Of a stretch of DNA of 64,000 nucleotides, positions 19,380-35,164 are shown one piece after another; positions within the stretch are counted from its first letter, which is position 1; every line of letters starts with the position of its first letter. Below the pieces are notes generated by a model. That model was not told the origin of the DNA. It saw only the letters and a program-made list of their open reading frames with translations, and searched no databases. The translations under genes and the position numbers were made by a program. This stretch comes from Pantoea sp. At-9b (GTDB taxonomy: Bacteria > Pseudomonadota > Gammaproteobacteria > Enterobacterales > Enterobacteriaceae), in assembly GCF_000175935.2 (NCBI RefSeq), contig NC_014839.1, positions 1 through 64,000 on the forward strand. The letters are read 5' to 3'.

Positions 19380-20285
19380 ATGAAAACTCCCAGCCTTGAT
19401 TCTTCATCAATTCTCACATTGAAGGTATTTGTTATGGTTGCTGATGTCCAAAATTTCTCTATAGCTGCCCGAAAACTTAACCTTTCAGCATCTACTGTGA
19501 CAAGTCACATATCCAATCTTGAAAAAAATATTGGCAGTGCACTATTTAACAGAACCACAAGACAAGTGTCTATAACAGAAATAGGATCCTATTTCTATGA
19601 GAGATGTAAAATTATTTTGGGAGAGGTTGATCAATCTGTCTCATTTTTAATGCCTAAAGATTTTTTCACAGGCAGACTTAGAATATCAGCTACCCCATCA
19701 TTTTCAGCGTCGATTCTCGCAACTGTTATTACCAGATTTGTGAATGAAAACTCTGAAGTAAAAATAGAAGTACATGCTAGTTCCACCCCCCCTAATTTGG
19801 TAAATGAAAGAATAGATATAGCATTCATGGTCAACGAAAAACATAACACAAGTTATTCCAATGTTAATATTGGCAGAGCACCACGTGTCTTTTGCGCATC
19901 AAATGAATATCTGCAGAAACATGGTATACCTAAGAATATTGACGAGTTATATAGTCATAGGTGTCTGCTTAACGTAGTTGGAGGAATAACTGAGCCGTGG
20001 ATAGTAGAGGAGAGAGGAGAAAGGAGAGAGATTCAGTTACATGGACCTCTGAGTTCGGATAATGGGGATGTGCTCAAGGCATCTTGCCAAGGTGGTTTGG
20101 GGATAGGTAATTTCTACCGCTTTCATGTCATCCGAGAACTCGAAAATGGTGTTATGACAGAAATTTTAAGTGATCATCAGCCTGACAAGAATAATGTTTA
20201 TGCACTTACTCCACATAGAGATATAATAACTCCATTGGCATCACATTTTATTGATTCAATGAAAGAATATCTGAAAAATAATTAG
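19380..20285 (+). CDS. LysR-family transcriptional regulator
   Basis: 301 residues. The HTH is FVMVADVQNFSIAARKLNLSASTVTSHISNLEKNIG with NRTTRQVSITEIG after it, the arrangement of the DsdC/AaeR-like LysR branch. The effector domain starts near residue 95 (GRLRISATPSFS). It reads toward the reductase gene at the end of the large leftward operon; the two stops are 33 bp apart and share a strong hairpin. Codon use is markedly AT-rich, like the rest of the catabolic island. Which promoter it controls is not visible. Confidence 0.85.
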   Translation: MKTPSLDSSSILTLKVFVMVADVQNFSIAARKLNLSASTVTSHISNLEKNIGSALFNRTTRQVSITEIGSYFYERCKIILGEVDQSVSFLMPKDFFTGRLRISATPSFSASILATVITRFVNENSEVKIEVHASSTPPNLVNERIDIAFMVNEKHNTSYSNVNIGRAPRVFCASNEYLQKHGIPKNIDELYSHRCLLNVVGGITEPWIVEERGERREIQLHGPLSSDNGDVLKASCQGGLGIGNFYRFHVIRELENGVMTEILSDHQPDKNNVYALTPHRDIITPLASHFIDSMKEYLKNN

Positions 20286-20318: not shown

Positions 20319-21281
20319 TCAAAAATCGAGCTTAATAAGGGGCGATTTTGAAGACGAGCAACAAATCATGATTTTGTTATTCAAAGCCCTTTCTTTTCCA
20401 GATAAGACCTCATCTTTATGATCTGGCACTCCCTCGAGGACAGTCAACTCGCATGCGCCGCATATGCCCTGCTGGCATGAATAGGGAGGGTCAAAACCAG
20501 CGTTGAGTAGCGCATCAAGAATTGTTTCGTCATGTCGTACCGGGATCCTTTTACCCGAGCGAGCCAACTCAACTTCAAAGCCATCGTGTTCTTCTACGAC
20601 TGCCGGCAGGAAGGATTCTAAATGGACGCATTCCTGATCAAGGTGCTGTGTTGCTTTGATAAAAGCATCAAGCATTCCTCCCGGCCCACAACAGTAAAAA
20701 TGAGTGCCTGGAGTAGATTTATGAACCATAGATTTAATATCTATTATTCCCTCCAATTCATCAATATGCAGATGAATTCGGTCATCATCAAGATCAAATC
20801 GATTAAGAAATGCTCCTGTACTTAAGGAACGTATGCAGTAATAAATTTCCCAACTGTCCTGAGTCTGCATCAATCTTTCTATCATTGAGAAGAAAGGTGT
20901 TATGCCTATTCCTCCGGCCAGGAAAACTGTATGTGTGGCACCTTCAGTCAGTGGAAAGAAATTTCGAGGAGGTGTTATCTCAATTATGTCTCCAACACGC
21001 AAACGCTCGTGTATGTATCGAGAACCGCCTCTCCCTCCATCAACATGCAGAACTCCTAATTCATAACCTGTACAATCTTCAGACAACCGAATTATTGAAT
21101 ATGCACGGCGCAAGCCTTGCGCTAAGTGCAGTTCAATGTGAGAACCAGGCGTAAAATCTCCTACGGCCGAACCATCTACCGTAGAAAGACGGAAAGAACG
21201 AATCTTTTCATTCTCCCACACAAATGAAACGACTCGCATTGGGACGGTAGTGATTTCAATTCCTTCAAATGCATTATCCAT
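20319..21281 (-). CDS. Phthalate-dioxygenase-reductase-type FMN/2Fe-2S reductase
   Basis: 320 residues in the order FNR-like flavin domain, NAD-binding domain, plant-type ferredoxin. Seen: RAYSIIRLSED (flavin contact), FLAGGIGITPFFSM (nucleotide binding), YCCGPGGM, and the C-terminal 2Fe-2S loop CQQGICGACELTV with the fourth cysteine about 30 residues later (MICCSS). This matches the electron-supplying partners of two-component Rieske oxygenases such as VanB, HpxE and phthalate dioxygenase reductase. The ATG at 21281 has AGGAGA 7 bases upstream. It is the last gene of the operon, 27 bp after a Rieske subunit, and is the only reductase for two oxygenases. Confidence 0.9.
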   Translation of the reverse strand: MDNAFEGIEITTVPMRVVSFVWENEKIRSFRLSTVDGSAVGDFTPGSHIELHLAQGLRRAYSIIRLSEDCTGYELGVLHVDGGRGGSRYIHERLRVGDIIEITPPRNFFPLTEGATHTVFLAGGIGITPFFSMIERLMQTQDSWEIYYCIRSLSTGAFLNRFDLDDDRIHLHIDELEGIIDIKSMVHKSTPGTHFYCCGPGGMLDAFIKATQHLDQECVHLESFLPAVVEEHDGFEVELARSGKRIPVRHDETILDALLNAGFDPPYSCQQGICGACELTVLEGVPDHKDEVLSGKERALNNKIMICCSSSKSPLIKLDF

Positions 21282-21307
21282 CAACGTTCTCCTGGAATAA
21301 TGTGTCG

Positions 21308-22363
21308 TTAAATCCAGTCGTTATCAATGGTGCCATAGGTGACGCCCATGTCCTTAAGCCACTTACGGTACTGAACACTCAACTTGTCTACCCGATGATG
21401 CATTTCAGCACGTAGGTCAACTGGTATACGTTCTGGCCTCTGAGTTTCTACAATTTCAATATCTTGCTCGAATATAAGTTCCTGACGAGCTCTGATCTGC
21501 TCATCCGAAAGCTCATTACCAAAGTTCATGGCCATTCCAACTCGCGCAATACAGTGTGTTTCATCAACAGGTTGTGCTGTGAAGAAGAGCCAGTAATCGT
21601 CTTCATGCTCTGAGACATTACCTTCAGGATCCACGACACGTATCTGCTTACGTAATGTTGCAACCAGTGGACGCAGACAAGAAAACGAGTAACTTGACTG
21701 CACAGGAACGCGACGCGGATCCCCTTGGGGCTGGAATACAGTCACAGGAGTGGTATAAAGGCTCCCGTTTTCTTCAAAGACCTGATAATCACCAATCGGG
21801 TCCGGTTCGGATTCGACACCATTCAGACCTCCATGTACAAATGGGAAGTGGGTAACATCACAAAAATTCTCCAATGCACGGTAGCCATTTGCATTAAAGT
21901 CATGTGGCCCGGTCAGAATATTACGGTAGCCTTCAGCACCCCACTCAGGGAATGAAGGCAGCTCCTGCTGAGGCTCACCGATTGACGCCCAAATAAACCC
22001 ATATTTTTCTTGGAGCTTATGTTCAAACGCTTTAACACGGGGAGGGACTGGCTGATCCGGAGTAGAGGGGATCAATGTACATTTACTTGTACCATCATAG
22101 CGCCACCCATGATAAGGGCAGACAACCTGGTCATCTTTGATATACCCTTTTGATAAGCGAGCCCCGCGGTGCATACATAGATCTTCCCAGATATGGGCTT
22201 CACCGCTCGCCTGGCGCCACATTACCAAATCGCGGCCAAGCAAACGAACTGGAATTAATTTTCCAGCCTCAAGTTCATGCGAAAAACCGACAACATGCCA
22301 GTCATTTAAAATAGCACCATCAATTGAAGAATCTTCTTTGAAAATTAAGTTACCCGGCTTCAC
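21308..22363 (-). CDS. Rieske non-heme iron oxygenase, alpha subunit (1)
   Basis: About 351 residues. The Rieske cluster ligands are in CMHRGA and CPYHGW. The mononuclear iron site is in the segment ENFCDVTHFPFVHGG, giving the Asp bridge and two histidines. The length and lack of a beta subunit fit the monocomponent-alpha group that includes VanA, HpxD (hypoxanthine) and the NdmA/NdmB N-demethylases, so O- or N-demethylation or hydroxylation of a heterocycle is plausible. I prefer the GTG at 22363 because GGAGG lies 5 bases before it; the frame is open to a TTG at 22399. The 247-bp gap upstream (22364-22610) is AT-rich and may hold an internal promoter. Confidence 0.88.
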   Translation of the reverse strand: MKPGNLIFKEDSSIDGAILNDWHVVGFSHELEAGKLIPVRLLGRDLVMWRQASGEAHIWEDLCMHRGARLSKGYIKDDQVVCPYHGWRYDGTSKCTLIPSTPDQPVPPRVKAFEHKLQEKYGFIWASIGEPQQELPSFPEWGAEGYRNILTGPHDFNANGYRALENFCDVTHFPFVHGGLNGVESEPDPIGDYQVFEENGSLYTTPVTVFQPQGDPRRVPVQSSYSFSCLRPLVATLRKQIRVVDPEGNVSEHEDDYWLFFTAQPVDETHCIARVGMAMNFGNELSDEQIRARQELIFEQDIEIVETQRPERIPVDLRAEMHHRVDKLSVQYRKWLKDMGVTYGTIDNDWI

Positions 22364-22610
22364 ACCTACCTCCACAAATTGCTCAAATGAATAACACAAT
22401 TAAATGAATCAATGCTAGATAAAATATAATTGCAAGCCTTAACGCAAACAAATACCTGATAACTATGCCGTCGATAGCCTGCAACTATACCTGGAATTTA
22501 TTTTAATTATGGTTACTCAACCACCTAAAAAATAATGAAAAAAACACCATACTTTAAAATAAAACAAAAACCATGAATAAATTACCATAGGTAAATCGTA
22601 TATTTGTTTA

Positions 22611-23702
22611 TTACATTCTAGGTGGGGTGCCAACCTTTAACGCAAGCCCAGTCGCCCTCATTAATTTACGATAATTAATTGCCACTAAATCAAAATCCAG
22701 ATGAAGTTCATCGGCCAAGTCAAAAGGAACAAATTCGGGCCTTTGACTTTCAACAATCGTTTGGTCTTGATCCAACACTATATCTGTAAATTCTTGAAGA
22801 ACTCTTGGATCCTGATCATGAGCATAGTTTCGTGCGGTTCTTAAAAATGCTCTGCTTTTATCCTTTCCAATAGGTTGGGATACGAATAAGTGGACCATTT
22901 TATCTGCTCCCCCCCAGTCCTGCCGAAGTACAATAGTGTAAGGTAAGTGAAGCTCGTAATATGAGTGCCTCACAGGAAGAACATCTTTCTTTTCACGCCC
23001 CCACACTGATGCTTTACCCGCTTGGGGTGCTTCAGGACGCATAAAATGATAGCGCATTACATGTTCATCAGTTTCGACTTGGTACTTGGGTACAATTACC
23101 CGCTCGGGATCACCAAGTAAGCCCGTATGAACCCATGGGAAATGTCCAAAATCTGTAAAGTTCTCTAGTTGACGAGACGCGTCAGATTGCCAGTCATAGG
23201 GTCCAGTTGAAATAACATGAAATTCTGGCTCATCGAATTCTGGGATATCAGGTATATTCCATAGCGGTGTATCAAGAGCAACCCATACGATGCCATATCG
23301 TTCCTGTGCTTGGTATGCAGTTACCCGGGCTTTATCAGGAATGTGACGGGGATTTTCTCGTTGTGGGATCATGGTACATGCTCCATCTCCACGAAAACGC
23401 CAACCGTGATATGGGCACATAATTTCACCATCTACAACTTTTCCAATAGACAAAGCAGTACCACGGTGTATGCAAAGATCAGCAACTGCTTGGATGCTGT
23501 TCTCTTTATTGCGCCACAATACTATTTGTTCATTAAGCAGTCTTGAGGAATAAGGCTGATCCTGAATTTCTTCTGAATAGGCAACCGGATGCCAACATTT
23601 TCGTAATGCATTAACATCAGGAATTGCTGATGGAGAATACAGAACCGTATCAGGTATACGAAAAACATTATCATTTTCTTTGATGTTGCGCCCTAAACTC
23701 AT
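22611..23702 (-). CDS. Rieske non-heme iron oxygenase, alpha subunit (2)
   Basis: 363 residues from the ATG at 23702, which has GGAGG 5-6 bases upstream (the open frame extends 9 codons further). Rieske ligands are in CIHRGT and CPYHGW. The catalytic iron site is in ENFTDFGHFPWVHTG. It shares fold and motif spacing with the neighbouring oxygenase but the two are clearly diverged, so they probably act on different positions or successive intermediates. The protein must take electrons from a separate reductase, and the only candidate here is the FMN/2Fe-2S protein two genes downstream. A 433-bp gap upstream holds a hexanucleotide repeat. Confidence 0.88.
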   Translation of the reverse strand: MSLGRNIKENDNVFRIPDTVLYSPSAIPDVNALRKCWHPVAYSEEIQDQPYSSRLLNEQIVLWRNKENSIQAVADLCIHRGTALSIGKVVDGEIMCPYHGWRFRGDGACTMIPQRENPRHIPDKARVTAYQAQERYGIVWVALDTPLWNIPDIPEFDEPEFHVISTGPYDWQSDASRQLENFTDFGHFPWVHTGLLGDPERVIVPKYQVETDEHVMRYHFMRPEAPQAGKASVWGREKKDVLPVRHSYYELHLPYTIVLRQDWGGADKMVHLFVSQPIGKDKSRAFLRTARNYAHDQDPRVLQEFTDIVLDQDQTIVESQRPEFVPFDLADELHLDFDLVAINYRKLMRATGLALKVGTPPRM

Positions 23703-24135
23703 ATTGACCTCCAGAATCACATTTAACATGAAAATAAAATTTATAAGTAATTATTGGCTCTAGAAAAAACAACAAACCACTAATTCAAAGCATGAACCAT
23801 AGATATTCACCTTCATTTACATTTACATTTACATTTACTTTACTGAAGTTGGATAAATGATGATTATCGAATTTGTTAAAGCACGCCAAAGCGTTTAGCG
23901 TTCTAAAACATGAACTGATTATAAAATAAATAAGCATTTATCAGACCCCATAAAAGGCATAACACCTTTCTCTAAATTAGAAACTGGAATTACCTTGAGA
24001 ATCCCAATGCCATGGCTATCATACATGATAAAAAATTCACTTCCTGGCCATTAGAATATACAGCTCACAACACCTTAATACAAATATCGGATAACTATAT
24101 GTCATATAGTGAATTGCTATGCGTTAAAGAAGTAG
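23703..24135. other. Intergenic region before Rieske oxygenase 2
   Basis: 433 bp, AT-rich, with no open frame I would call. It holds four tandem copies of ATTTAC at about 23815-23838, around 115 bp upstream of the start codon. It also has a weak 7-bp dyad ACTATAT/ATATAGT at 24094-24110 that could end transcription from the permease gene. It probably contains a promoter for the three oxygenase genes. I looked for a sigma-54 element and an NtrC dyad and found neither. Confidence 0.5.
23815..23838. repeat. Tandem hexanucleotide repeat (ATTTAC)4
   Basis: Four perfect tandem copies of ATTTAC upstream of the second Rieske oxygenase gene. Such short tandem repeats can change copy number by slippage; here it is outside any coding frame. 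Confidence 0.9.
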
Positions 24136-24885
24136 TTATCTTCTCCTCTCAGTTAACCATTGTAAAAAACCGATAAATGAGTCAAATACTAAAGTTAAAA
24201 GAATAACGAGAATAATCCCAGAATAAACCTTTGGGGTATCCATCATGGTTCGATTGTACGATATGTAGTAACCCAGACCAGATGATGAAGTAAGCATTTC
24301 GCCTACAATCACCCCGACAATGGCCAGAGCACCTCCAAGTCTTATGCCTCCAAGAATCGTAGGCAGAGCTGCAGGGACTAAAACATACCATGCAAGAGAA
24401 AGCCGAGATGCTCCCAAGCTCCTACCTGTCAATACATAGGCAGAAGGTATCGAATGTACTCCCGCAGCGACTGACAGAAATGCAGGAAAGAAACCATAAA
24501 ATCCGCCAAATATAATTTTTGACTCAGCACCAACCCCCAGCCATGCTGTTATTATGGGATAGAGAATGACGATTGGAATTGCATAGGCACTTGAAGCCAT
24601 AGGTAAGATAATCGGACGTGCAGTTACACTGATACCAACCAGTAGTCCGGCAACTACACCAGTCAAACATGATATGGAAAGTGCAAGCGCAACTTCACCG
24701 AGTGTTGTTGTAAGGTGGCCACTTAACTCAGCAAAATCCGTATATCCTGCAATAAGCGTAGCGGATAAACTAGGCAGAAAAATAGGAGGTACAAGTCCAG
24801 CACGAGGTAACAACTCCCAAATGCTGGCTAAAATAATTACCAATAATATTTGCACGAAACGTGCCGGAACTTTAAGCACCATCAT
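24136..24885 (-). CDS. ABC transporter permease (SsuC/TauC family)
   Basis: 249 residues with about six membrane segments. The EAA-type cytoplasmic loop lies around GRSLGASRLSLAWYVLVPAALPTILGGIRLGGALA. Family members carry sulfonates, nitrate, taurine, thiamine precursors or heterocyclic compounds. The ATG overlaps the ATPase stop by 4 bp. The operon encodes two permeases of this family, so the channel is probably a heterodimer. Import of the substrate for the catabolic enzymes in the same operon is the natural inference. Confidence 0.88.
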   Translation of the reverse strand: MMVLKVPARFVQILLVIILASIWELLPRAGLVPPIFLPSLSATLIAGYTDFAELSGHLTTTLGEVALALSISCLTGVVAGLLVGISVTARPIILPMASSAYAIPIVILYPIITAWLGVGAESKIIFGGFYGFFPAFLSVAAGVHSIPSAYVLTGRSLGASRLSLAWYVLVPAALPTILGGIRLGGALAIVGVIVGEMLTSSSGLGYYISYNRTMMDTPKVYSGIILVILLTLVFDSFIGFLQWLTERRR

Positions 24886-25658
24886 GATTTCCTGATTTTA
24901 GACCAAATATGATCACGTATTTCATTAAATAATGGCATCGACATGGTTTCAAACGTACGGGGGCGAGGCAGGTCAACCTTAATTTTTTCTACAATTCTTC
25001 CAGGTCTAGCAGCCATCACATAAATCTCATCTGCAAGATAAACCGCCTCGCTGAGACCGTGAGTGACAAACACGATTGTTTTCTTTGTTCTGCTCCAGAT
25101 ACGAAGTAATTCATCACCCATTTCTAAACGGGTCTGTTCATCCAGAGCCGCAAAAGGTTCATCCATCATGAGAACAGGAGGATCTTGAACCAATCCACGT
25201 GCAATGGAAACGCGCTGTCGCATACCACCCGAGAGTTCTCTGGGATAGCGTTTTTCGCTACCAGAGAGACCCACCAGTTCAAGCGCATTACGTGCTTTTT
25301 CAAGGCGCATATGTTTCGCCTCTTTTTTTAACATTAATGGAAACGCTACGTTGTCAATCGCTGTCATCCAAGGAAATAGGTTAGAATCCTGGAAAACAAC
25401 CCCTACTCTGTCCGGGTCAGCCCCATTCAACTCCCGATTATTGCAAATGATGCTTCCACTACTGGGCTCCTGTAATCCAGCCATCGTCATGAGCAATGAG
25501 GATTTCCCACATCCAGAGGGACCTACCAGGACGATAAATTTACCTTGTTCTATCGAAAAAGAGGTGTCCGAAAGCACGTTAACTTTTTCAGTCCCTTTCT
25601 GATAAGAGAGATTTAAACGGTCAATTTCGAAAGCTTTTTTTGCAATAACCTGATTCAT
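24882..25658 (-). CDS. ABC transporter ATPase (SsuB/TauB family)
   Basis: 258 residues. Walker A is GPSGCGKSS (about residues 43-51), the Q-loop VVFQDSNLFPW, the signature LSGGMRQRVSIARGL, Walker B VLMMDEPFAALD, and the switch His in FVTHGLSEAVYLAD. The chain ends with the short C-terminal segment usual in the nitrate/taurine group. It overlaps both flanking permease genes by 4 bp, so the three form one translational unit. It powers uptake through the two permeases. Confidence 0.92.
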   Translation of the reverse strand: MNQVIAKKAFEIDRLNLSYQKGTEKVNVLSDTSFSIEQGKFIVLVGPSGCGKSSLLMTMAGLQEPSSGSIICNNRELNGADPDRVGVVFQDSNLFPWMTAIDNVAFPLMLKKEAKHMRLEKARNALELVGLSGSEKRYPRELSGGMRQRVSIARGLVQDPPVLMMDEPFAALDEQTRLEMGDELLRIWSRTKKTIVFVTHGLSEAVYLADEIYVMAARPGRIVEKIKVDLPRPRTFETMSMPLFNEIRDHIWSKIRKS

Positions 25659-26404
25659 TCATATGCTCCCATTAACCGGCGTTCAAACCATATGAACGCT
25701 TCATTAATGCAAATTGAAAATAATGAAATTAATAAAATACCAGCAAGGAGGTTAGAAATTTGATAAGCCTCACCCCAGTTGTTAAGCAGTGTTCCGACAC
25801 CAGTTCTGGATGCGTACATCTCTGCAAGTATCACTCCAGTTTGTGTGAAAATCATCGTAAGGCGTAACCCTTCTAATATTGTTGGAAGCATGGCCGGAAG
25901 ATAAATGTATCGGCTTATCTGTCCCATACTTGCCCCATATGCTCTAGCAGTAAAAAGATGACTCGGTTGAACGGAAGAAATAGCCGTACCACAATTCATA
26001 ATAACAAGGAAAATGGCAGAAAATACGCCGAACGCAAATCTCTGTCCGAAACCAATACCAAAAACCAGTAAAAAAACAGGCAAAAATATTGATTTAGGAA
26101 TTCCCAAAGGAAACATGACAAATGGCATTAGTACCTTCTTCCAGTAACAGTTTGAGACTATCATTATTCCCACAGGAATGCCTATGACGACTGCTGTTAT
26201 AAACGAAGAAAACACCACTATCATAGTCGAAGCTAAATTAATCTGAACCTCTTCTGTTTGGATCAATTGATAAGCAGTTAACGTAACTTCACTCAGCGGA
26301 GGAAGTAGCTGGGAAGAAACCCAGCCGCTCTGACTCACGAGTTCCCAGATTAATGCCAGAACAACTAGGCACAAAATCCGCACAATGCCATTTCTGTAAG
26401 CCAT
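25655..26404 (-). CDS. ABC transporter permease (SsuC/TauC family), second
   Basis: 249 residues with about six membrane segments. The conserved loop is TARAYGASMGQISRYIYLPAMLPTILEGLRLTMIFTQTGVILAEM. It is only distantly similar to the other permease of the operon. It starts 31 bp after the binding-protein gene and overlaps the ATPase start by 4 bp. Having two non-identical permeases is less usual than the single SsuC/TauC subunit and suggests a heteromeric channel. Confidence 0.86.
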   Translation of the reverse strand: MAYRNGIVRILCLVVLALIWELVSQSGWVSSQLLPPLSEVTLTAYQLIQTEEVQINLASTMIVVFSSFITAVVIGIPVGIMIVSNCYWKKVLMPFVMFPLGIPKSIFLPVFLLVFGIGFGQRFAFGVFSAIFLVIMNCGTAISSVQPSHLFTARAYGASMGQISRYIYLPAMLPTILEGLRLTMIFTQTGVILAEMYASRTGVGTLLNNWGEAYQISNLLAGILLISLFSICINEAFIWFERRLMGAYE

Positions 26405-26435
26405 ACCAGATTTTCCATACCTTTAATTTAATTTT

Positions 26436-27389
26436 TTACTTAATCTGAAATGATGATGTATAGATACTTTCAACTGGCGCAACGCTATTCATTCCCCCTT
26501 TTTTCGCCATATCTAACCAACGCGTCATCTTTTCAATATCGATAGAGCCATCAGTGATCAAAGGTTTATAAATTTCATCAAACTCCTGCTTGGCGACCTC
26601 TTGGGAAACGCCATCATTACTTGCAATGATGCTCACGGCATTTTTGTCTGACTGAAACTCTTTAACTGATTTATAGATTGCGTTGATGGTGCTTTGTAAC
26701 TCCTTTGAGTTATTACTTATGTAACTATCTGGACTTACCCACAAATCTCCAAGTACAGGTGGTAGCATTTTACTGAAATCGATAATCGGTCGCACTTTAC
26801 CCGAAGAAATCATTTGATAGCTAATCGGTGCATAAAATAAAGCAGCGTCAACATTGCCACTTTCCAAATTTGGAACAAGTCCAGCCCCACCTAAGGGAAC
26901 TCGAGTAAATTTAATATGGTTATTCTCTCCCACCCATCTGCTCAGAATATCTGAACTTGATCCAGCTGATGTAATACCTACTTTTTTACCCTGTAAATCA
27001 GACACACTTTTAATCGTGGAATCTTTAGGTACAACAAGGAACCAACCGGCAATACCGGAACCCCCTCCACCTACCATCTTACTGTCTATCCCTTTATCAC
27101 GCCCCGTAGCGGTGCTTGCAGGTCCACCCATAATGATATCTGCGGCACCTGCAGCCATTGCCTGAAATGCATCGCCACCGCTGCGATAAACAGTAACTTC
27201 AGGATCGATTCCAGCATCAGAAAAAATTTTATTATCTATACCATAATTAACAATCACGGTAGGCCAATAAGTCTTAGTAATTACCCCCACCCGGACTTTT
27301 TCGGCAGCCGTCGTCACATTTGAATAAAATGACAGTAAAATTGCGGCGAAGGAAAAACGTAAGGCAGGTTTCAGCTTTACTTTTAACAT
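26436..27389 (-). CDS. Periplasmic substrate-binding protein (SsuA/TauA/NMT1-like)
   Basis: 317 residues. A signal peptide (hydrophobic core about 10-24, likely cleavage after TTAA near residue 29) precedes a two-lobed binding domain. It opens VRVGVITKTYWPTVIVNYGIDNKIFSDAG, the nitrate/sulfonate-binding family start. It also has MAAGAADIIMGGP and LESGNVDAALFYAPI, which line the cleft in this family. It probably captures the compound degraded by the operon's enzymes. A 125-bp gap to the preceding gene could contain a weak promoter, but none stands out. Confidence 0.88.
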   Translation of the reverse strand: MLKVKLKPALRFSFAAILLSFYSNVTTAAEKVRVGVITKTYWPTVIVNYGIDNKIFSDAGIDPEVTVYRSGGDAFQAMAAGAADIIMGGPASTATGRDKGIDSKMVGGGGSGIAGWFLVVPKDSTIKSVSDLQGKKVGITSAGSSSDILSRWVGENNHIKFTRVPLGGAGLVPNLESGNVDAALFYAPISYQMISSGKVRPIIDFSKMLPPVLGDLWVSPDSYISNNSKELQSTINAIYKSVKEFQSDKNAVSIIASNDGVSQEVAKQEFDEIYKPLITDGSIDIEKMTRWLDMAKKGGMNSVAPVESIYTSSFQIK

Positions 27390-27514
27390 GCGAAATACTC
27401 CAGTTGTGTATGGTCAAAAAAATCAACCCTCTGTGTTTATTAACTCAGAAGGACAAATCAGATGAGATTTATAAACAGATGTATTTCTAAATCAAAAACC
27501 AACCAGATTTAAAA

Positions 27515-28327
27515 TTAATCACCCCCATTCAAAAGCTGCATATATCGCCCAGCACTTTCTGAAATAATTTTTTTACCATTATTGAGAACATCTTGACCTT
27601 CGAATGCACCATATATTTTTTCAAAACAGTATGGCTGAATCCGTTCATTAAGATCTTTCACCTGCCTTATCGGCAGTGGAAGCATATTAGGATAACTCCA
27701 CATGAAAGACACATGATGAGCACCCGGTGTTATCTGTACAATGTCTCCAGCCAGTATGACACCTTTTTTGTCTCCGTCGTCTGACCATAACATGACTGTT
27801 CCACCGGCGAAGTGTCCACCAAGGCAGATGAGTTTACAACCTGGGAACAACTCCATTTCACGACCCTGCCATAAATGAAGCTTACTATCGGGTCTTACAA
27901 TCCACTCCTTATCACTTTCATGAAGGTAAACAGGGCAATCAAATTCCTTAGCCCAGTCCTGCATCGTGGTGTAGTAATGAGGATGAGAGATTGCTATCGC
28001 TTTCAGGCCTCCGAGTGAATGAATAATTTCACGCGTGCTGTTATCGAGAAGCGCTATACAATCCCAAAGAATATTGCCTGCAGGTGTTGTAATTAAAAAT
28101 GCTCGCTGATTAATAGCAAAAGCCGGAACAGTTTGGAGACAGAATAACCCGGGCTCCATCAGACGCCAGGCATTACGATGTCTTTTATTTAGCGAATTTT
28201 GTTCAGTCCAACTCTGGCCACTTGAAGGAACGTATTGGCGTTCATCATCACAAATTTTACATGCTTCTGGCGGATTATCCGAGTCAGGGTACGCCGTTCC
28301 ACATGCATTACACAGATAAGTTGTCAT
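27515..28327 (-). CDS. Metallo-beta-lactamase-fold protein with N-terminal zinc ribbon
   Basis: 270 residues. A CxxC...CxxC knuckle at the N-terminus (CNACGTAYPDSDNPPEACKIC) suggests a zinc- or rubredoxin-like site. The MBL fold follows: SHPHYYTTMQDW gives two histidines but lacks the usual HxHxDH aspartate, GGHFAGGTVML gives a third histidine, and LAGDIVQI gives the bridging aspartate. The expected last histidine is replaced (YGAFEGQ). The metal site is therefore reduced, perhaps mononuclear. Position between the cupins and the transporter argues for a hydrolytic pathway step such as lactone or cyclic-amide opening; this is inference. Confidence 0.78.
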   Translation of the reverse strand: MTTYLCNACGTAYPDSDNPPEACKICDDERQYVPSSGQSWTEQNSLNKRHRNAWRLMEPGLFCLQTVPAFAINQRAFLITTPAGNILWDCIALLDNSTREIIHSLGGLKAIAISHPHYYTTMQDWAKEFDCPVYLHESDKEWIVRPDSKLHLWQGREMELFPGCKLICLGGHFAGGTVMLWSDDGDKKGVILAGDIVQITPGAHHVSFMWSYPNMLPLPIRQVKDLNERIQPYCFEKIYGAFEGQDVLNNGKKIISESAGRYMQLLNGGD

Positions 28328-28358
28328 TTTTTAATTCCAGCCCAATAAGGTCATTGCA

Positions 28359-28760
28359 TTAGTCTTCCGGAATTTCAGCTTCCATAGAGATAACGCCTAT
28401 ATGCTTAAGCATTCCCAAATCAGCCGGTGATGGGCCGCCAATGTTGACCATTCGTCCGTCATGATTAGCCAGAATTGCATGCTCAATCCCTTGAGGAACA
28501 TTGACAGCACAGCCCGCGTAGACAGGTATATCAAGATTATTGGTGTAATCTCTAGCGATGCCTGTTCCCTCAAGCACAAAGATAGTGTCGTCAGAGAATG
28601 CATGCGTATGAGGAGCGTTCGCTTCACCGTTCTCGAGAACAACGTATCCCATCGTCGCTTTCCAGATATTCGTTCCCGGCCATGCAATAAAGCGTGCATC
28701 TTTCGAAATCAGCGGGACCTTCAAGGTGGGTTTATCACGGTGGAAGAGACGAATCGGCAT
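28359..28760 (-). CDS. Small cupin protein (downstream of pair)
   Basis: 133 residues, single double-stranded beta-helix. Cupin motif 1 is HTHAFSDDTIFVLEGTG and motif 2 runs VYAGCAVNVPQGIEHAI, giving three histidines and an acidic residue for a metal. It starts 2 bp after the preceding cupin gene, and the two are divergent in sequence. Small cupins in degradation operons serve as dioxygenases, isomerases or hydrolases; the exact reaction cannot be read. The ATG at 28760 is followed at once by MPIRLFHRD. Confidence 0.78.
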   Translation of the reverse strand: MPIRLFHRDKPTLKVPLISKDARFIAWPGTNIWKATMGYVVLENGEANAPHTHAFSDDTIFVLEGTGIARDYTNNLDIPVYAGCAVNVPQGIEHAILANHDGRMVNIGGPSPADLGMLKHIGVISMEAEIPED

Positions 28761-28761
28761 A

Positions 28762-29178
28762 TTAATGTTCCCCTTGAGATTTTATCTTTTCATACAACTT
28801 ATTATCGGGAGGACAAGGCCCCCCTACAAAATCTACCCCATCATTTCCGGCAGTAATTGTGTAACTTTCGTGTTTATCAATATGGATTATGCTGCCTTCA
28901 ACCAGACTTTGTTGTTCCCCGGTCAAACCGTCTTTGATGTTTCCAGTCCCCTTAAGGACGTAGTAAACACAATCAAAAGGATGCTGCAGGGGAAAAAGAC
29001 TGGCTCCATCTTGCAGCTGGTGATAGTGCATGCTGCGTTTCAGTGAACCATTCCCCGGCCAGAACAGTACCTTGACTGTTCCCTGACCATCCACAATGTG
29101 AAGCTCCGGACAGTCTGTAGCAGAGTCAACCACCTTGACCTGCAGTTCAGTAATGTGATCAGAATATTGCATATTCAT
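28762..29178 (-). CDS. Small cupin protein (upstream of pair)
   Basis: 138 residues. A beta-helix region contains MHYHQLQDGASLFPLQHPFDCVYYVLKGTG, a cupin motif 1 with histidines, then VEGSIIHIDKHESYTI as motif 2. Its end (GGPCPPDN) resembles the end of the next cupin (GGPSPADL), so the two may be an old duplication or act as a heteromer. It lies 15 bp downstream of the FAD monooxygenase gene. A ring-cleavage or tautomerase role after hydroxylation is possible but unproven. Confidence 0.75.
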   Translation of the reverse strand: MNMQYSDHITELQVKVVDSATDCPELHIVDGQGTVKVLFWPGNGSLKRSMHYHQLQDGASLFPLQHPFDCVYYVLKGTGNIKDGLTGEQQSLVEGSIIHIDKHESYTITAGNDGVDFVGGPCPPDNKLYEKIKSQGEH

Positions 29179-29193
29179 CTCCTATCTATACCA

Positions 29194-30408
29194 TTAACTG
29201 AAAAGAACGTTACTTATCTCACTCAACTCAATACCGGTGTACCTGACGACTTCTTCCGCCGAAACAGGTTTGCCATTGTCAGACTGTCTATCTCCTTCAC
29301 ATTGCAAGTATGTTCCAAGTTTTCTAGCCCAGTTGACGGCATTTTTACCGGCCATGACACGGTCTGATGAATATTTTTCCAGTGCTTCAGGAATGTCTTC
29401 ATGCGCCTCCAATGCTTCAAATAAAGCAACGGCATCAGCAGCTGCCTTACTAACACCTGCACCGCAATGAGGCCTGGCAACAAATGCGGCATCACCAACT
29501 AACGTAACTCTTCCAAAGTTGAGATTTTCATTTTCAAGATCGAAAATGGGCTGTACAAAGAGCGACTTCATTGCAGGAATAGTGCGCGCAAACAGAGGAG
29601 GTAATAAAAGAGCCGTTTTGCGTATGTTGTTAATAACGTCAGTACGTATCAAATGAGGCGGGATACCAGTGGGATAATGAACCCCGTCTGAACCGGTTAA
29701 GATGTCATACAGCTCATTTTTTGGTGCCGGGCGGTACCACATCATATTGAAGCGTCGCGTGCCAACTTCAATCGATCCCCCTGGACCCGCTACAGGATAA
29801 GCAACAGCTTCCTCGTTGTTTAAAAAACCAAAACTAAAACTGCTGAAGTCATCAATGGATAACTCAGACGGAAACTCATTTTCCTCCAGCATACCGCGCC
29901 ATGCTACGTACCCTGCATAGGTGGGCTTAATTTCAGGGGCTACGTTTTCACGAACGCTTGAGTGTATGCCATCAGCCCCAATCACCAAACTCGCCTGGTG
30001 CACCTCACCGGTGCTTAGACGGACTTTGGTGAAGTCAGGTTCGCTAATAACGCTTTCAACCATAGCGCCTTTGTGGAAGATGCCTGCGGGAAGTGCGGTC
30101 AGCAAACTTTCATAAAGTAGCCCCCAGGAGGTAGTTGTCTGAGCATATTCACAGCGCGCTACTACTGAGCCGTCCGGATAATAGCCAATCCTGTTGTTAA
30201 TACCGATGCCAAGTTCTTTGCTGACATCGACTCCTGAGAGTTCCAGTGCATGACGGAGTGTCCTTTGCATGGCAATACCAGCACCACGGGCCTCCAGCCC
30301 CTTAGAGGAACGCTCAAAGAGTTTCACATTCCAACCATGGCGAACAAGAATGTTCGCAGTAAGTAAACCGGCTATAGACCCGCCCACTACGATCGCGCTT
30401 CGCTTCAT
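29194..30408 (-). CDS. FAD-dependent aromatic/heterocycle hydroxylase (dihydroxypyridine-hydroxylase type)
   Basis: 404 residues, class A flavoprotein monooxygenase. The ADP-binding fold is VVGGSIAGLLTANIL. The second FAD motif is GDAAFVARPHCGAGVSKAAADA, the variant seen in 2,6-dihydroxypyridine 3-hydroxylases; most members instead have GDAAH...GQG. The substrate-domain stretch AGYVAWRGMLEENEFPSE and FNMMWYRPAP also fit that group. Expected reaction: NAD(P)H- and O2-dependent ring hydroxylation of an electron-rich N-heterocycle. The ATG has ACAGGAGT upstream. It lies 34 bp after the amidohydrolase gene, which parallels pyridine pathways where hydroxylation leads to an amide. HpxO-like urate hydroxylase is an alternative reading. 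Confidence 0.85.
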   Translation of the reverse strand: MKRSAIVVGGSIAGLLTANILVRHGWNVKLFERSSKGLEARGAGIAMQRTLRHALELSGVDVSKELGIGINNRIGYYPDGSVVARCEYAQTTTSWGLLYESLLTALPAGIFHKGAMVESVISEPDFTKVRLSTGEVHQASLVIGADGIHSSVRENVAPEIKPTYAGYVAWRGMLEENEFPSELSIDDFSSFSFGFLNNEEAVAYPVAGPGGSIEVGTRRFNMMWYRPAPKNELYDILTGSDGVHYPTGIPPHLIRTDVINNIRKTALLLPPLFARTIPAMKSLFVQPIFDLENENLNFGRVTLVGDAAFVARPHCGAGVSKAAADAVALFEALEAHEDIPEALEKYSSDRVMAGKNAVNWARKLGTYLQCEGDRQSDNGKPVSAEEVVRYTGIELSEISNVLFS

Positions 30409-30442
30409 AATGACTCCTGTTAAATTTGACTGATTAACTTAC

Positions 30443-31078
30443 CTATTGATGACGGTTTTCAATCTTGGCCATCGTTTCCAGGGACGTCAGAACATCACCG
30501 TATTTAAGGCTTATATCAATCAGACTCTGATGGTGAGAAGCTTCAACACGATCCATTACAGCATCACTTACAACCACTGGCCTGAAACCTGATTGACAGG
30601 CATCAACAGCTGTGGCTCTTACGCATCCGCTTGTGGTGCAGCCTGTAATGATCAACGTATCAATCTGTTTCGCGATCAGTCGGGACGTTAAATCAGTGCC
30701 AAAAAAGCAGCTTGCGAATTTTTTCACGATAACTGCATCCTCAGGACGGCGGTCAAGACGATAATCTACTTCACTACCTTTTAGATTGGATGCCAGAGTA
30801 GTGAGACCACCAATCTTGTTGATCCAAATTCCAGCATCCTCAAGCTCATGCCCGTCATACCGTATAGTTGAGAACAACACCGGCACATCATTCTTTCTGG
30901 CAAAACTGATAATGGAGTTGGTAATAATGATTTGCCGATCTGCTTTGCCTCCTAGAGGTGCGCTGGGGTCGGTAAAAGCATTCACAAAGTCGACGATTAA
31001 CAGAGCCGGACGTTTACCAAAGCCAATACTCTTTGCAAAACCTCTTTCCTGCAGAGAAATCTTTTCATTTTCGTTCAA
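30443..31078 (-). CDS. Isochorismatase-fold amidohydrolase (N-carbamoylsarcosinase/maleamate-amidase type)
   Basis: About 211 residues. Family signature IGFGKRPALLIVDFVNAFTDP carries the catalytic Asp, VKKFASCFFGTDL the Lys, and GCTTSGCVRATAVDA the nucleophilic Cys. The IGFGKRPALL start is typical of the N-carbamoylsarcosine amidohydrolase and maleamate amidohydrolase (NicF) branch and not of siderophore isochorismatases. Likely releases ammonia from an amide produced by ring cleavage. No ATG is in frame; I place the start at the TTG at 31078, preceded by GAAGGGG about 8 bases upstream (the frame is open to another TTG at 31129). First gene of the long leftward operon. Confidence 0.85.
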   Translation of the reverse strand: MNENEKISLQERGFAKSIGFGKRPALLIVDFVNAFTDPSAPLGGKADRQIIITNSIISFARKNDVPVLFSTIRYDGHELEDAGIWINKIGGLTTLASNLKGSEVDYRLDRRPEDAVIVKKFASCFFGTDLTSRLIAKQIDTLIITGCTTSGCVRATAVDACQSGFRPVVVSDAVMDRVEASHHQSLIDISLKYGDVLTSLETMAKIENRHQ

Positions 31079-31468: not shown

Positions 31469-31843
31469 ATGATTATGAATGACCCTAAAACAGTTAGAGA
31501 GATCACAGATATCGTAAAAGCCTATGATAAAGCTCTTATAGAAAATGATCTGGATGCCATCAACGCATTTTTCCTGAATTCAGAGGAAATCGTTCGCTAC
31601 GGACCTAATGAAAACTTATACGGTGCAAAAGCCATTGCGGCATTTAGGGCTGCTCGTCCAGCAGGACCTAAACCCAGAAGTGTGACAGCAATCCATGTCA
31701 TAGTGACAGGTAAAGATCATGCAATTGCACATACTGAATTTTTCACCCCTGACTCAGATAAATGTGGAAGACAGACGCAATGCTGGTCTCGATTCCCTGA
31801 TGGATGGAAAATAATTGGCGCTCATGTGTCATATATATCCTGA
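31469..31843 (+). CDS. AtzH/HpxZ-like (DUF3225) small protein
   Basis: 124 residues, SnoaL-like cone fold. The segments IVKAYDKALIENDLDAINAFF, then VRYGPNENLYGAKAIAAFRAARP and the ending QTQCWSRFPDGWKIIGAHVS are the AtzH/HpxZ pattern. In known systems these small proteins accompany amidases in cyanuric-acid (AtzH) or oxalurate (HpxZ) breakdown. It thus points to hydrolysis of a urea- or amide-containing intermediate. AGGA lies 10 bases before the ATG. It is transcribed away from the leftward operon and shares the NtrC-type regulatory gap with it. Confidence 0.8.
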   Translation: MIMNDPKTVREITDIVKAYDKALIENDLDAINAFFLNSEEIVRYGPNENLYGAKAIAAFRAARPAGPKPRSVTAIHVIVTGKDHAIAHTEFFTPDSDKCGRQTQCWSRFPDGWKIIGAHVSYIS

Positions 31844-31975: not shown

Positions 31976-32758
31976 TCACCGCTGTTTTAATCCATTTAGT
32001 CTATATTGTTCAGGGGTTTTTCCTGTAAATCTTTTAAACATAACAATAAAGGCTGAGGGTGTTGTATATCCTAATTCCAGAGCAATCCGCTGAACAGTCA
32101 GTCCCGCTTCGAGGGATTCAATTGCGTGCATAAACTTAAGTCTTGAACGCCACTCACCAAATGAGATACCCAGCTCTCGCTGGCAGCGTCTTTCAAGAGT
32201 TCGGGACGTCATATGTAGTTGCTCTGCAAAATCTTCAACAGACCGACGATCTCCCGGATTCAACTGCAGCTCCTTAATTACACTGTTAAGTTCATCTGAC
32301 ACCGCATAAGGGAGATAGGTTTCGTGGGGTTTTATATGCAGGATTTGATCCAGTGCCACCTGTGCCATTCTCAAGTCCTCCTCTGTCTCTGGTACCCTTA
32401 CGTCACGCAATGCAAAATCATCAAGGATGGCATGCAGCACGGGGCTGACATTTAGCGTGGTGGGTTTTGAGGGGAGTCGGTTCGAGAGCTTTAACGAGAT
32501 GTATACCGTTCGATAGACAAGGTCTCTGGAGGCAAAGGAGAAATGGTCAGCAAAAGGGGGGATCCATACAGCATACTGAGAAGGCGACAAGAATCGGATA
32601 CCGTCAATTTCGAGGTGCATTACACCATGCGAGACATAGTTTAGCTGACCCCAGGGGTGCGCATGCGTCTTCCATTCCATTGCTGGCAGGCGATCGTGCC
32701 TGAAATAGAGGTCACCAGGAAACTCCTGCAAATGGGGTATCTCACCTTCGATCATCAT
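31976..32758 (-). CDS. AraC-family regulator with cupin sensor domain
   Basis: 260 residues. The N-terminal cupin half is HAHPWGQLNYVSHGVMHLEIDG and the C-terminal double HTH contains FAEQLHMTSRTLERRCQRELG and IALELGYTTPSAFIVMFKRFTGKTPEQYR. The arrangement resembles the NimR (YeaM) type, which controls a divergent efflux gene. Here too a transporter gene (EamA) starts divergently 101 bp away. Control of that exporter is therefore the simplest inference. Confidence 0.87.
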   Translation of the reverse strand: MMIEGEIPHLQEFPGDLYFRHDRLPAMEWKTHAHPWGQLNYVSHGVMHLEIDGIRFLSPSQYAVWIPPFADHFSFASRDLVYRTVYISLKLSNRLPSKPTTLNVSPVLHAILDDFALRDVRVPETEEDLRMAQVALDQILHIKPHETYLPYAVSDELNSVIKELQLNPGDRRSVEDFAEQLHMTSRTLERRCQRELGISFGEWRSRLKFMHAIESLEAGLTVQRIALELGYTTPSAFIVMFKRFTGKTPEQYRLNGLKQR

Positions 32759-32859
32759 ATGTCTTCTCCTGTGTACACTTTGTCTATAAATGAGTATATC
32801 AACATTTATGGACGCCTGTTATGTTGTATACGTTATTTTGAATACAGGCAAGAAAGACC

Positions 32860-33792
32860 ATGGATTACATTTTTCCACTACTCGCTGCCATTCTATGGGG
32901 CGCGAACATTGTTATTACAAAAATGGCCTCAGGCCTAATTTCCCCCAATGAAATAAGTTTTCTTCGTTGGTTCCTTGCTACGATTGTACTGACTCCTTTT
33001 GTCATTCGACCTTTAATTACTCATGCATCAATATTACGCCAGAACCTTGGGAAGATCTTTATATTAGGTGTCTTAGGTGGTGTTATTTTCCAATGCCTCG
33101 CCTATTACGCTGCAGCCTACACATCAGCAATGAACATGGGCATCATTCAGGCTCTAATGCCATTAATGGCGATCATCCTGGCCAGCATGCTTTTCCGTAC
33201 CATGCCGGGAATGAATACAGTCGCAGGGGCGGTCATTTCTCTTGCAGGAGTGCTGATCGTAATTTCTGGTGGCCATATCAGCCAGCTGATAAGCCACGGT
33301 CTGAATTTGGGTGACGGGATGATGCTGCTCGGTGCCTTTGCTATGGCAGTGTATAATGTCTTGCTTAAACGTTGGCACATTGAAGTTCCGTTATCGGTGT
33401 CTTTATATCTTCAGGCTGTCGCTGCGTGTATTGTTTTACTGCCGGTCTATCTGCTTTCTGAAAAGCATGCACTGACAATGGCGACCTCCGGTATGGTGCT
33501 TTATTCTGCGATCGGCGCCTCTGTTCTGGCACCGCTTACATGGATGGCAGGTTCGCGTCGCCTGGGCCCATCACGTGTATCATTATTTTTCAATCTGATA
33601 CCCGTATTCACAGCAATCATGGCTGCTGTGTTTTTATCAGAAAAATTCACGTGGTCACTGATTTCAGGGGGTGTACTGGCGTTAGGCGGTGTTATTTACG
33701 TTGAGATAACAAGGAAATTCTCGACCGCTAATAAAGATCAAAGTGAAGTCATTGAAGATAAGGATAATAAAAAAGCGCACAAATTTTCATAA
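32860..33792 (+). CDS. EamA/DMT-superfamily transporter (1)
   Basis: 310 residues with about ten membrane helices in two EamA repeats. The first repeat starts LLAAILWGANIVITKMASG and the second around DGMMLLGAFAMAVYNVLLKRW, ending near GGVLALGGVIYVEI. Members export amino acids, purines or other metabolites across the inner membrane. The ATG follows AAGAAAG. Divergent from the AraC regulator, and its own terminator follows, so it is a single-gene unit. It may export a toxic intermediate. Confidence 0.88.
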   Translation: MDYIFPLLAAILWGANIVITKMASGLISPNEISFLRWFLATIVLTPFVIRPLITHASILRQNLGKIFILGVLGGVIFQCLAYYAAAYTSAMNMGIIQALMPLMAIILASMLFRTMPGMNTVAGAVISLAGVLIVISGGHISQLISHGLNLGDGMMLLGAFAMAVYNVLLKRWHIEVPLSVSLYLQAVAACIVLLPVYLLSEKHALTMATSGMVLYSAIGASVLAPLTWMAGSRRLGPSRVSLFFNLIPVFTAIMAAVFLSEKFTWSLISGGVLALGGVIYVEITRKFSTANKDQSEVIEDKDNKKAHKFS

Positions 33793-34213: not shown

Positions 34214-35164
34214 ATGATGACAAATTCTTCTCGTCAGGAATTTAAGAAAATACGCGTTGCCGGCGTGCAGGCTGCTCCTGTTTTTCTCGATCTGAATGGA
34301 ACGACAGAGAAAGCCTGTGAACTGATTCTCGAAGCTGGGCGTAAAGGAGCCGAACTTATCGCGTTTCCTGAAGCTTTTATACCCACATTTCCGAACTGGT
34401 ATGAAACGCTGGCAGAGTCACCAAAAGCACGTGAACTAGACAAGCGTCTTTTCCTCGAATCTGTGGAGATGGATGGCGAACATATGAAAGCCATCGCTGA
34501 GGCATGTGCCAAAGCGAATATCAATGCTGTAGTCGGTATTAATGAACGTAGTCCGATGACAAACGGCAGTATGCATAACACGCAGGTACACATCACCCGT
34601 GATGGTATCATTGCAGGAAAACATCAAAAGTACGTACCTACAACTGGAGAACGTCAGGTCCATACGCCAGGAAAAACTGGTCACTACAACACCTTCAGAA
34701 CAAATTTCGGTGTAGTGTCAGGCCTGATCTGTGGAGAAAACTCCAACATGCTGGGAATGTATGCAGCCGCAGTTAATTACCCGGTCGTACATGTTGGATC
34801 ATGGCCAATGTACTTCCATCCTTACTTCCATATGCAACACGCCATTTTAACCGCTACTGCGGGGCTTGCTTACTCACTGAAATGCTTCGTCGTGAATGCA
34901 GTGTCAAGAATCACCCCTGAATACATTGATGCTGTGGCTGAAACGGAAGAGCAACGCGTTTTCCTGGAAGAGCAACGCGCATATCTTCCCGGTGCCTCAA
35001 TTCTCGACCCTTCAGGAAATTTAATTATTGATGGTACAGGTATGGACGAAGAACTTCTCTTCGCGGATATTAACCTGGAAGACGTTATCATTCCTAAGCT
35101 CATCATTGATACCGCAGGTCATTATAATCGCCCGGAATTATTTGCACCTCTCTTCCAGAAATGA
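34214..35164 (+). CDS. Nitrilase (C-N hydrolase family)
   Basis: 316 residues. Catalytic triad visible as Glu53 in LIAFPEAFIP, Lys139 in KHQKYVPT and Cys173 in SGLICGENSN. The CGEN neighbourhood and the length match true nitrilases (aliphatic/arylaceto-type), which turn R-CN into the acid plus ammonia; amidases and carbamoylases of the superfamily look different there. The GSWPMYFHPYFH stretch also belongs to the nitrilase branch. Free-standing with its own terminator and an NtrC-like site far upstream, consistent with use of nitriles as nitrogen source. The exact substrate cannot be read. Confidence 0.9.
   Translation: MMTNSSRQEFKKIRVAGVQAAPVFLDLNGTTEKACELILEAGRKGAELIAFPEAFIPTFPNWYETLAESPKARELDKRLFLESVEMDGEHMKAIAEACAKANINAVVGINERSPMTNGSMHNTQVHITRDGIIAGKHQKYVPTTGERQVHTPGKTGHYNTFRTNFGVVSGLICGENSNMLGMYAAAVNYPVVHVGSWPMYFHPYFHMQHAILTATAGLAYSLKCFVVNAVSRITPEYIDAVAETEEQRVFLEEQRAYLPGASILDPSGNLIIDGTGMDEELLFADINLEDVIIPKLIIDTAGHYNRPELFAPLFQK

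Follow-up and report, generated by a model that had tools for sequence, protein, structure and literature searches.

A putative twelve-gene oxygenase operon and a neighboring nitrilase module in Pantoea sp. At-9b: a candidate pathway for the degradation of a methylated N-heterocycle

The first 64,000 nucleotides of contig NC_014839.1 of Pantoea sp. At-9b (RefSeq assembly GCF_000175935.2; hereafter the window, part of a 394,054-base contig in a 6.31-Mb genome) contain a series of minus-strand genes at 20319-31078, which an earlier reading of the letters (hereafter the sequence-only reading) had described as a twelve-gene operon for the oxidative catabolism of an N-heterocycle. All twelve collinear open reading frames (ORFs) were confirmed in the order amidase, flavin adenine dinucleotide (FAD)-dependent hydroxylase, cupin 1, cupin 2, MBL-fold protein, substrate-binding protein, permease, ATPase, permease, two Rieske oxygenases (here RieB and RieA) and a reductase, and matches to Pfam, NCBIfam and PDB families bear out the gene content and leftward orientation given by that reading. 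Based on the closeness of the FAD enzyme to 2,6-dihydroxypyridine hydroxylase (DHPH) and the occurrence of cupin homologs alongside molybdenum hydroxylases and amidases, we propose that oxidative catabolism of an N-heterocycle is indeed the best reading of these genes; this supports the broad class named earlier, with boundaries that were drawn too narrowly. Based on base composition and a linkage conserved in Rhodococcus ruber, a nitrilase module situated 3 kb upstream is probably part of the same unit, which would then reach 37.2 kb. With this addition the candidates for the substrate reduce to methylated rings that probably carry a nitrile, and the general scheme, namely that the low-GC (guanine-plus-cytosine) stretch degrades a methylated N-heteroaromatic, most probably a pyridone, appears to us about evenly balanced between being right and wrong.

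The FAD enzyme has intact GGSxxG, DG and GD motifs and matches the NF005566 model of the PRK07236 family over its full length (404.9 bits against a cut-off of 333; the model's own name is ‘hypothetical protein’). Its nearest solved relative is the DHPH structure 2vou, aligned over residues 6-376 at 147 bits with the next structure at 64, and it is predicted to hydroxylate a dihydroxypyridine. Furthermore, three metagenome proteins (P0003, P0004 and P0005; 59, 57 and 59% identical to the FAD enzyme) are naturally fused proteins in which a DHPH-type FAD hydroxylase is followed, C-terminally in the same chain, by a cupin that shares 50-58% identity with cupin 1 and 25-31% with cupin 2. This joining of a cupin 1-like domain to the flavoenzyme suggests that the cupin probably acts in the step next to that of the flavin enzyme. 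A RieB relative at 80% identity (P0242) and the fusion protein P0005 are both listed with two contigs, the longest of 8,854 bases, and from this matching entry the two probably share a contig. A homolog of the FAD enzyme at 80% in Klebsiella pneumoniae (P0002) indicates that the gene is at least not confined to this genome; 40 of 60 related genomes have a match, the best foreign one at 36%, and the best identity in a search of genome contigs was 43% among the best 80 of 105 loci. Relatives at 43-44% on Cupriavidus and Paraburkholderia plasmids adjoin a VOC protein and an acetate-symporter-type gene and were set aside as members of another pathway.

Cupin 1 yields a sub-threshold Pfam match to Ectoine_synth (22.3 bits, cut-off 27) and is recognized as a cupin by its 30% identity to cupin 2 and by its homologs. 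Cupin 2 retains the HxH...D...H motif, with an aspartate where the family of a fused two-cupin protein (bicupin) of R. ruber has a glutamate, and is 45.8% identical to the C-terminal half of that bicupin. Within this half H176, H178, E182 and H219 are invariant across 38 sequences and we infer that they are metal ligands. An AlphaFold model of the bicupin displays a confident two-cupin fold (pLDDT 88.6) with nearly tied structural matches to oxalate decarboxylase, DUF861/ureidoglycine aminohydrolase and quercetinase; the comparison of this model selects no single function. We propose that the two-cupin protein might be the ring opener. A search of the host's phylum (397 genomes besides its own) gave nine weak partial matches and no full-length cupin 1, and none was detected in 391 other members of the host's family. 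A scan of viral contigs returned no match to the bicupin, and in the phylum of genome G820 (Actinomycetota, by inference) 47 of 346 genomes match it at E ≤ 1e-3, only two of them strongly.

Both oxygenases display the Rieske plus VanA_C architecture with intact CxH/CxxH and D-x2-H-x4-H motifs, and the cysteine motif of the ferredoxin domain is intact in the reductase. Among structures in the PDB, RieB is closest to NdmA (169.5 bits, followed by SxtT at 152 and NdmB at 146) and RieA to SxtT (196 bits, with NdmA at 133). A tree of 11 sequences, in which NdmA and NdmB themselves were absent, unites RieB with a pair of Rieske proteins from a P. caffeinilytica plasmid at a support of just 74/73 and places RieA outside that pair's group. 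In light of these family relationships RieB is proposed as a putative N-demethylase and RieA as a putative O-demethylase. The ndm system (NdmA/NdmB/NdmD) is alike in having two VanA-type Rieske oxygenases, which we take to be served by a shared reductase as in the window. RieB is 34-35% and RieA 29-30% identical to the P. caffeinilytica pair, presumably an Ndm-like one. However, the P. caffeinilytica region codes for a glutathione S-transferase, an S-(hydroxymethyl)glutathione dehydrogenase and a nucleobase symporter, none of which was recognized in the window cluster, whereas the latter adds an FAD hydroxylase, cupins, an amidase and a nitrilase; a plain ndm operon was rejected. Relatives of RieB at 54-59% are common in the wider protein database among the best 120 of 3,713 matches, where the named ones include actinobacterial names, and in G820's phylum two of 346 genomes have a match at E ≤ 1e-60, one at 55% and one at 36%. 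Two other candidates were dismissed: Paraburkholderia 22B1P combines a RieA relative (50%) and a reductase with a 30% AraC match and is without the FAD, cupin, MBL-fold, amidase and nitrilase proteins, and a RieA relative in Mycetohabitans (44%) lies in a different context.

The comparison of homologous neighborhoods that the sequence-only reading had advised brought to light an R. ruber cluster, actinobacterial cupin rows and a set of nitrilase plasmids. In protein searches of 72,556 plasmids the top match of RieB is WP_342661743 from plasmid pmega_2 of R. ruber MSA14, at 59% with the next at 38% (705 matching plasmid records). The same plasmid supplies the top match of RieA (WP_342661749, 49.7% over 94%, the next being 49.8% over 91%; 753 records) and the best non-enterobacterial match of the nitrilase (45.5%, then 41.7% and 35.5%; 729 records), and its bicupin has no match in any other plasmid record. 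The order there is RieB, reductase, GntR, LysR, nitrilase, MarR, RieA, reductase, fused cupin 1-cupin 2, CN-hydrolase and cyclase. Thus, the linkage of RieB, RieA, the nitrilase and both cupins (32 and 46% identical) is conserved, and this arrangement connects the nitrilase with the Rieske pair in two phyla. The R. ruber cluster differs in having a reductase for each oxygenase (the window's is 36% and 34% identical to the two), a CN-hydrolase amidase, a cyclase, and formate dehydrogenase genes on the other side of the cluster, which would suit formaldehyde release. Two AllG-like genes (oxamate carbamoyltransferase subunit) lie beside these formate dehydrogenase genes, and no described function was found for the pmega_2 cluster. 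When 20 proteins of the window were compared with 116 loci, with six promiscuous queries hidden and loci with at least two matches considered, the R. ruber locus was the sole cluster-like one besides the window's own. The remaining loci were rejected: L105 holds reductase and Rieske matches that form an HpxD-type pair, L031 and L045 an FAD enzyme with a short reductase-like stretch, and L037 an FAD enzyme with a weak match to the second isochorismatase.

A further context is provided by two genomes of G820's phylum, G903 and G957 (loci L150 and L151), in which one row of genes encodes cupin 1, a third cupin, cupin 2 and, at 46 and 43% identity to that of R. ruber, a CN-hydrolase. G903 joins cupin 1 and the third cupin in one protein and has cupin 2 as a gene by itself, and in G957 the three are separate genes. 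Beside these cupins are an isochorismatase, an Amidohydro_2 protein and molybdenum hydroxylases, of which two large subunits were tested in G903 and three in G957; the G903 neighborhood also has an NMT1 importer. Molybdenum hydroxylases commonly open N-heterocycle pathways and also serve purines and other compounds. Hence, their presence near cupins and amidases makes the cupin-amidase set look like a shared lower pathway, and this context does not decide which ring is attacked.

The nitrilase module comprises genes for an AraC-type regulator, two EamA transporters, the nitrilase and a second isochorismatase-family hydrolase. The nitrilase scores 148.4 bits against TIGR04048 and at most 26 bits against amidase models, which places it in the nitrilase branch of the CN hydrolases; as the equivalog cut-off of TIGR04048 is 502.6, it is a relative and not an equivalog. 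The R. ruber nitrilase scores 175.5 bits. Among PDB chains, nitrilases and cyanide hydrolases match the nitrilase of the window at 91-145 bits (8uxu at 144.5) and carbamoylases at about 29. The glutamate, lysine and cysteine columns, which we take to be the catalytic residues, are conserved in all eight aligned rows, and the active-site stretch CGENSN is common to the nitrilases of the window, three enterobacteria, R. ruber and Arthrobacter, with CGENTN in Caballeronia. A 41.7% nitrilase of Arthrobacter crystallopoietes adjoins an NMT1 binding protein and was set aside as being without the Rieske pair. The plasmid of the window codes for a second nitrilase homolog, 33% identical to the first, at about 114.6-115.5 kb (L156:10586-11491).

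Several observations weigh against joining all these genes in one pathway. The nitrilase occurs at 66.7-99.7% identity on eight enterobacterial plasmids (four of K. pneumoniae, one of Pluralibacter and three of Enterobacter), and a DNA search, which a diverged copy would escape, found the operon on none of the eight. The 31 kb of R. ruber that were compared have no homolog of the FAD enzyme, isochorismatase, importer or MBL-fold protein. Moreover, a RieB relative at 55% in genome G1029 has no other operon homolog around it and lies near possible purine or hydantoin genes, its neighbors being an M20-family and a polysaccharide-deacetylase-family gene; a nearby ORF considered as an NCS1 permease was dropped, having no Pfam match. 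Some of these points would suit an N-heterocycle operon that has no need of a nitrilase, with the AraC-EamA-nitrilase-EamA-isochorismatase cassette as an independent passenger that detoxifies nitriles or scavenges nitrogen. EamA and AraC-type genes accompany the nitrilase on all seven enterobacterial plasmids whose neighbors were listed or viewed, there giving it a regulator and transporters of its own, and a megablast search with 17.9-36.0 kb of the window matched five plasmids, each only within 31.97-36.0 kb. Against it, the nitrilase is linked to RieA and RieB in another phylum too, on the plasmid that holds the best non-enterobacterial match, and we consider this explanation improbable. 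As an observation in its own right, the AraC-EamA-nitrilase(-EamA) cassette, at 31976-37242 in the window, recurs on enterobacterial plasmids, and on K. pneumoniae pKp1050-1 it lies near frmR and a class III alcohol dehydrogenase gene (formaldehyde genes), with an IS1 between them.

The amidase and the divergent AtzH/HpxZ-like gene, whose place and family agree with the sequence-only reading, bear on a second alternative. The best PDB match of the amidase is N-carbamoylsarcosine amidohydrolase 26st (217.6 bits, residues 24-224), followed by isochorismatase-family hydrolases at 147 and 143, by 3ot4/3uao, which we take to be NicF, at 121 and by 1nba at 119. This name is no proof of action on N-carbamoylsarcosine, as homologs with the same annotation also occur in aromatic-dioxygenase clusters. 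The five viewed neighborhoods of its plasmid relatives contain ring-hydroxylating dioxygenases (Arthrobacter 68b p2MP and Rhodococcus opacus), TRAP transporters (Salipiger), HpaB-type hydroxylases (Peribacillus) or other aromatic genes (Arthrobacter J3.37), and were discounted as a clue to the substrate because they are so varied. The AtzH/HpxZ-like protein scores 128.7 bits against the NCBIfam HpxZ model, close under the cut-off of 135. The MBL-fold protein has no Pfam or NCBIfam match; some of its plasmid homologs are annotated ‘MBL fold metallo-hydrolase’, and its N-terminus bears a C-x2-C...C-x2-C motif. Roles of the latter two proteins in the pathway are conjectural.

The alternative in question is catabolism of a purine, methylxanthine or hydantoin, in which RieA and RieB would hydroxylate or N-demethylate a purine-type ring, the flavoenzyme would act like HpxO, the bicupin like ureidoglycine aminohydrolase, and the amidase and HpxZ-like protein would finish ureido or oxalurate intermediates. 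The hpx pathway (HpxD/E, HpxO, HpxZ) shares with the window a VanA-type Rieske oxygenase with reductase, an FAD hydroxylase and an HpxZ-like neighbor. However, HpxD and two relatives form a separate clade at 100/100 support in the 11-sequence tree, and the FAD enzyme reaches just 92.9 bits against HpxO (cut-off 500) as opposed to 405 against the DHPH-type model, for which reason a plain hpx pathway was rejected. Furthermore, no uricase, allantoinase, 5-hydroxyisourate hydrolase or nucleobase permease was recognized among the genes of the stretch, and a purine route has no place for the nitrilase; we regard such a substrate as rather unlikely. Among pyridine systems, the DHPH of nicotine catabolism resembles the FAD enzyme, but no other nicotine-pathway gene was recognized and the partners here are Rieske oxygenases and cupins. 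The nic and pic pathways for pyridine carboxylates use the maleamate route, and share with the window a flavin hydroxylase, ring opening and an isochorismatase-type amidase. In contrast to them, no 2,5-dihydroxypyridine dioxygenase, formylmaleamate deformylase or maleate isomerase was recognized in the window cluster, the operon is without a molybdenum hydroxylase, and the amidase is nearer to carbamoylsarcosine amidase than to 3ot4/3uao; since its partner genes were not recognized, a plain nic/maleamate pathway was rejected. The earlier statement that the set matches none of the known pathways agrees with our searches, which found no characterized cluster with such content, and no described pathway was matched in our searches of open-license PMC papers. 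The cluster is a new arrangement of known enzyme families. It unites oxygenase families otherwise encountered apart, in the catabolism of caffeine, nicotine or purines, and what this analysis chiefly adds is the link to the nitrilase and the fusion of flavin enzyme and cupin.

Returning to a methylated N-heteroaromatic as the substrate, the parts list implies a ring that carries a nitrile and can be attacked by Rieske enzymes at two sites, with a core resembling dihydroxypyridine whose opening gives an amide. The gene content, enzyme families, intact motifs and R. ruber linkage can be read from the sequences, and on them we base a conditional order of steps. The NMT1-type ABC importer would take up the substrate, after which the neighboring nitrilase may convert the ring nitrile to an acid and ammonia. 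RieB, which is NdmA/NdmB-like, and RieA, fed by one reductase, would then strip N- and O-methyl groups as formaldehyde. The dihydroxypyridine thus formed may be hydroxylated by the DHPH-type flavoenzyme, in a reaction that possibly also removes the carboxylate. Finally, the cupin 1/cupin 2 pair would open the polyhydroxylated ring and the isochorismatase-type amidase would cleave the resulting amide.

Ricinine is the castor-bean alkaloid 1-methyl-3-cyano-4-methoxy-2-pyridone, and to our knowledge it is the one natural compound that would need each part once. We therefore name it, tentatively and with low confidence, as the leading single substrate of a complete aerobic route within the general scheme. 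The nitrilase would produce ricininic acid, which is reportedly the product of a soil Pseudomonas nitrilase acting on ricinine. Two demethylations would give 2,4-dihydroxynicotinate, from which hydroxylation, either simple or decarboxylative, would lead to 2,3,4-trihydroxypyridine. If that ring were cleaved between C3 and C4, an N-oxalyl aminoacrylate would result; its amide bond would be a fitting target for an isochorismatase-type amidase, and this product might explain the HpxZ-like neighbor. No sequence of the soil Pseudomonas enzyme is known to us. If ricinine is the substrate, the window would offer candidate sequences for a nitrilase activity that has been known since the 1960s, together with a new ring-opening chemistry for trihydroxypyridines. 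PMC3537687 presents ricinine hydrolysis by a soil bacterium as an early nitrilase discovery of the 1960s, with activity and purification described, and thus a bacterial nitrilase acting on a methylated cyano-pyridone, as envisaged here. Our searches of open-license PMC papers turned up no gene cluster for ricinine breakdown. In place of a plant alkaloid, the substrate could be a synthetic cyano- or methoxy-heteroaromatic such as an agrochemical, dye or drug, as might be suggested by the plasmid location, the low-GC stretch and the rarity of cupin 1 noted above. However, the linkage of homologs across phyla suggests an old natural substrate and no xenobiotic-specific gene was recognized, making a synthetic origin very unlikely.

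With regard to layout, eight of the 11 intergenic gaps measure -4 to 34 bp, and the longer ones are 125 bp (binding protein/MBL-fold protein), 406 bp (RieB/permease) and 211 bp (RieA/RieB). The last two could accommodate internal promoters; hence the ‘one unit’ of the sequence-only reading stands as a run of collinear minus-strand genes, on which the proposal of a single unit of twelve is based, and is modified by these gaps and by limits set too narrowly. The amidase start proposed earlier, a TTG at 31078 behind AAGGGGCGG, looks better than the longest-ORF start at 31129. A 13-pair terminator-like hairpin lies 3' of the last operon gene (20313-20284); with 16 such sites in the window versus 12.4 (standard deviation 3.7) in shuffled sequence, it is weak evidence for an operon end.

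Table 1. Genes of the operon, the nitrilase module and their immediate neighbors (window coordinates)
Feature	Coordinates	Strand	Evidence
LysR regulator, convergent with operon end, possible regulator	19380..20285	+	HTH_1 + LysR_substrate
Rieske reductase (flavin/NAD + 2Fe-2S, PDR/VanB type), one partner for both oxygenases	20319..21284	-	Fer2 50.5 bits, NAD/FAD-binding domains
RieA, Rieske oxygenase, putative O-demethylase	21308..22399	-	Rieske + VanA_C
RieB, Rieske oxygenase, putative N-demethylase	22611..23729	-	Rieske + VanA_C
ABC importer permease 1	24136..24885	-	BPD_transp_1
ABC importer ATPase	24882..25658	-	ABC_tran; 45% to ATPase in L150
ABC importer permease 2	25655..26404	-	BPD_transp_1
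Substrate-binding protein, NMT1/SsuA type	26436..27389	-	NMT1 56.7 bits; SsuA_fam 83 bits, below cut-off 163.5
MBL-fold protein, N-terminal rubredoxin-like CxxC...CxxC	27515..28327	-	Plasmid homologs 55-57%
Cupin 2, metal-binding half of proposed two-cupin ring-opening enzyme	28359..28760	-	Cupin_2
Cupin 1, non-canonical half of proposed two-cupin enzyme	28762..29178	-	30% to cupin 2
FAD aromatic hydroxylase, dihydroxypyridine-hydroxylase type	29194..30408	-	PF22607 + PF01494 (FAD_binding_3)
Isochorismatase-family amidase	30443..31078	-	PDB best match N-carbamoylsarcosine amidohydrolase
AtzH/HpxZ-like protein, divergent	31469..31843	+	PF11533 139 bits
AraC-family regulator, probably of nitrilase cassette	31976..32758	-	HTH_18; 68-99% beside nitrilase, four other plasmids compared
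EamA (DMT) transporter 1	32860..33792	+	EamA; 63-98% beside nitrilase, four other plasmids compared
Nitrilase, Nit6803/cyanide-dihydratase subfamily	34214..35164	+	TIGR04048; PDB nitrilase matches
EamA (DMT) transporter 2	35620..36531	+	EamA; beside nitrilase on three of four other plasmids compared, not Pluralibacter
Second isochorismatase-family hydrolase	36547..37242	+	PF00857 104 bits; 98% in K. pneumoniae pKp1050-1

The GC content is 0.43 in the operon and 0.44 at 31.5-37.3 kb, versus 0.585 at 1-15.5 kb and 0.576 at 43.2-64 kb, and a 1-kb profile delimits a low-GC stretch between roughly 18 and 41 kb. A single compositional stretch thus holds both the operon and the AraC-EamA-nitrilase-EamA-isochorismatase block, of which the portion at about 18-37 kb was probably acquired; shared low GC alone is no proof of common arrival. 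The 17.9-36.0 kb segment has no match among E. coli genomes, and the flank at 40.0-63.9 kb has no plasmid match. On the left, at 15592-17986, an IS3-type transposase (rve, HTH_Tnp_1) abuts an enolase-superfamily gene of which the MR_MLE_C domain alone was seen, perhaps an insertion remnant near the low-GC stretch. On the right are an 845-residue protein with no Pfam match (38252-40789) and, at 43224-63982, genes that read from their ORFs as siderophore-like biosynthesis, export and TonB-receptor functions, with a GC content of 0.58.

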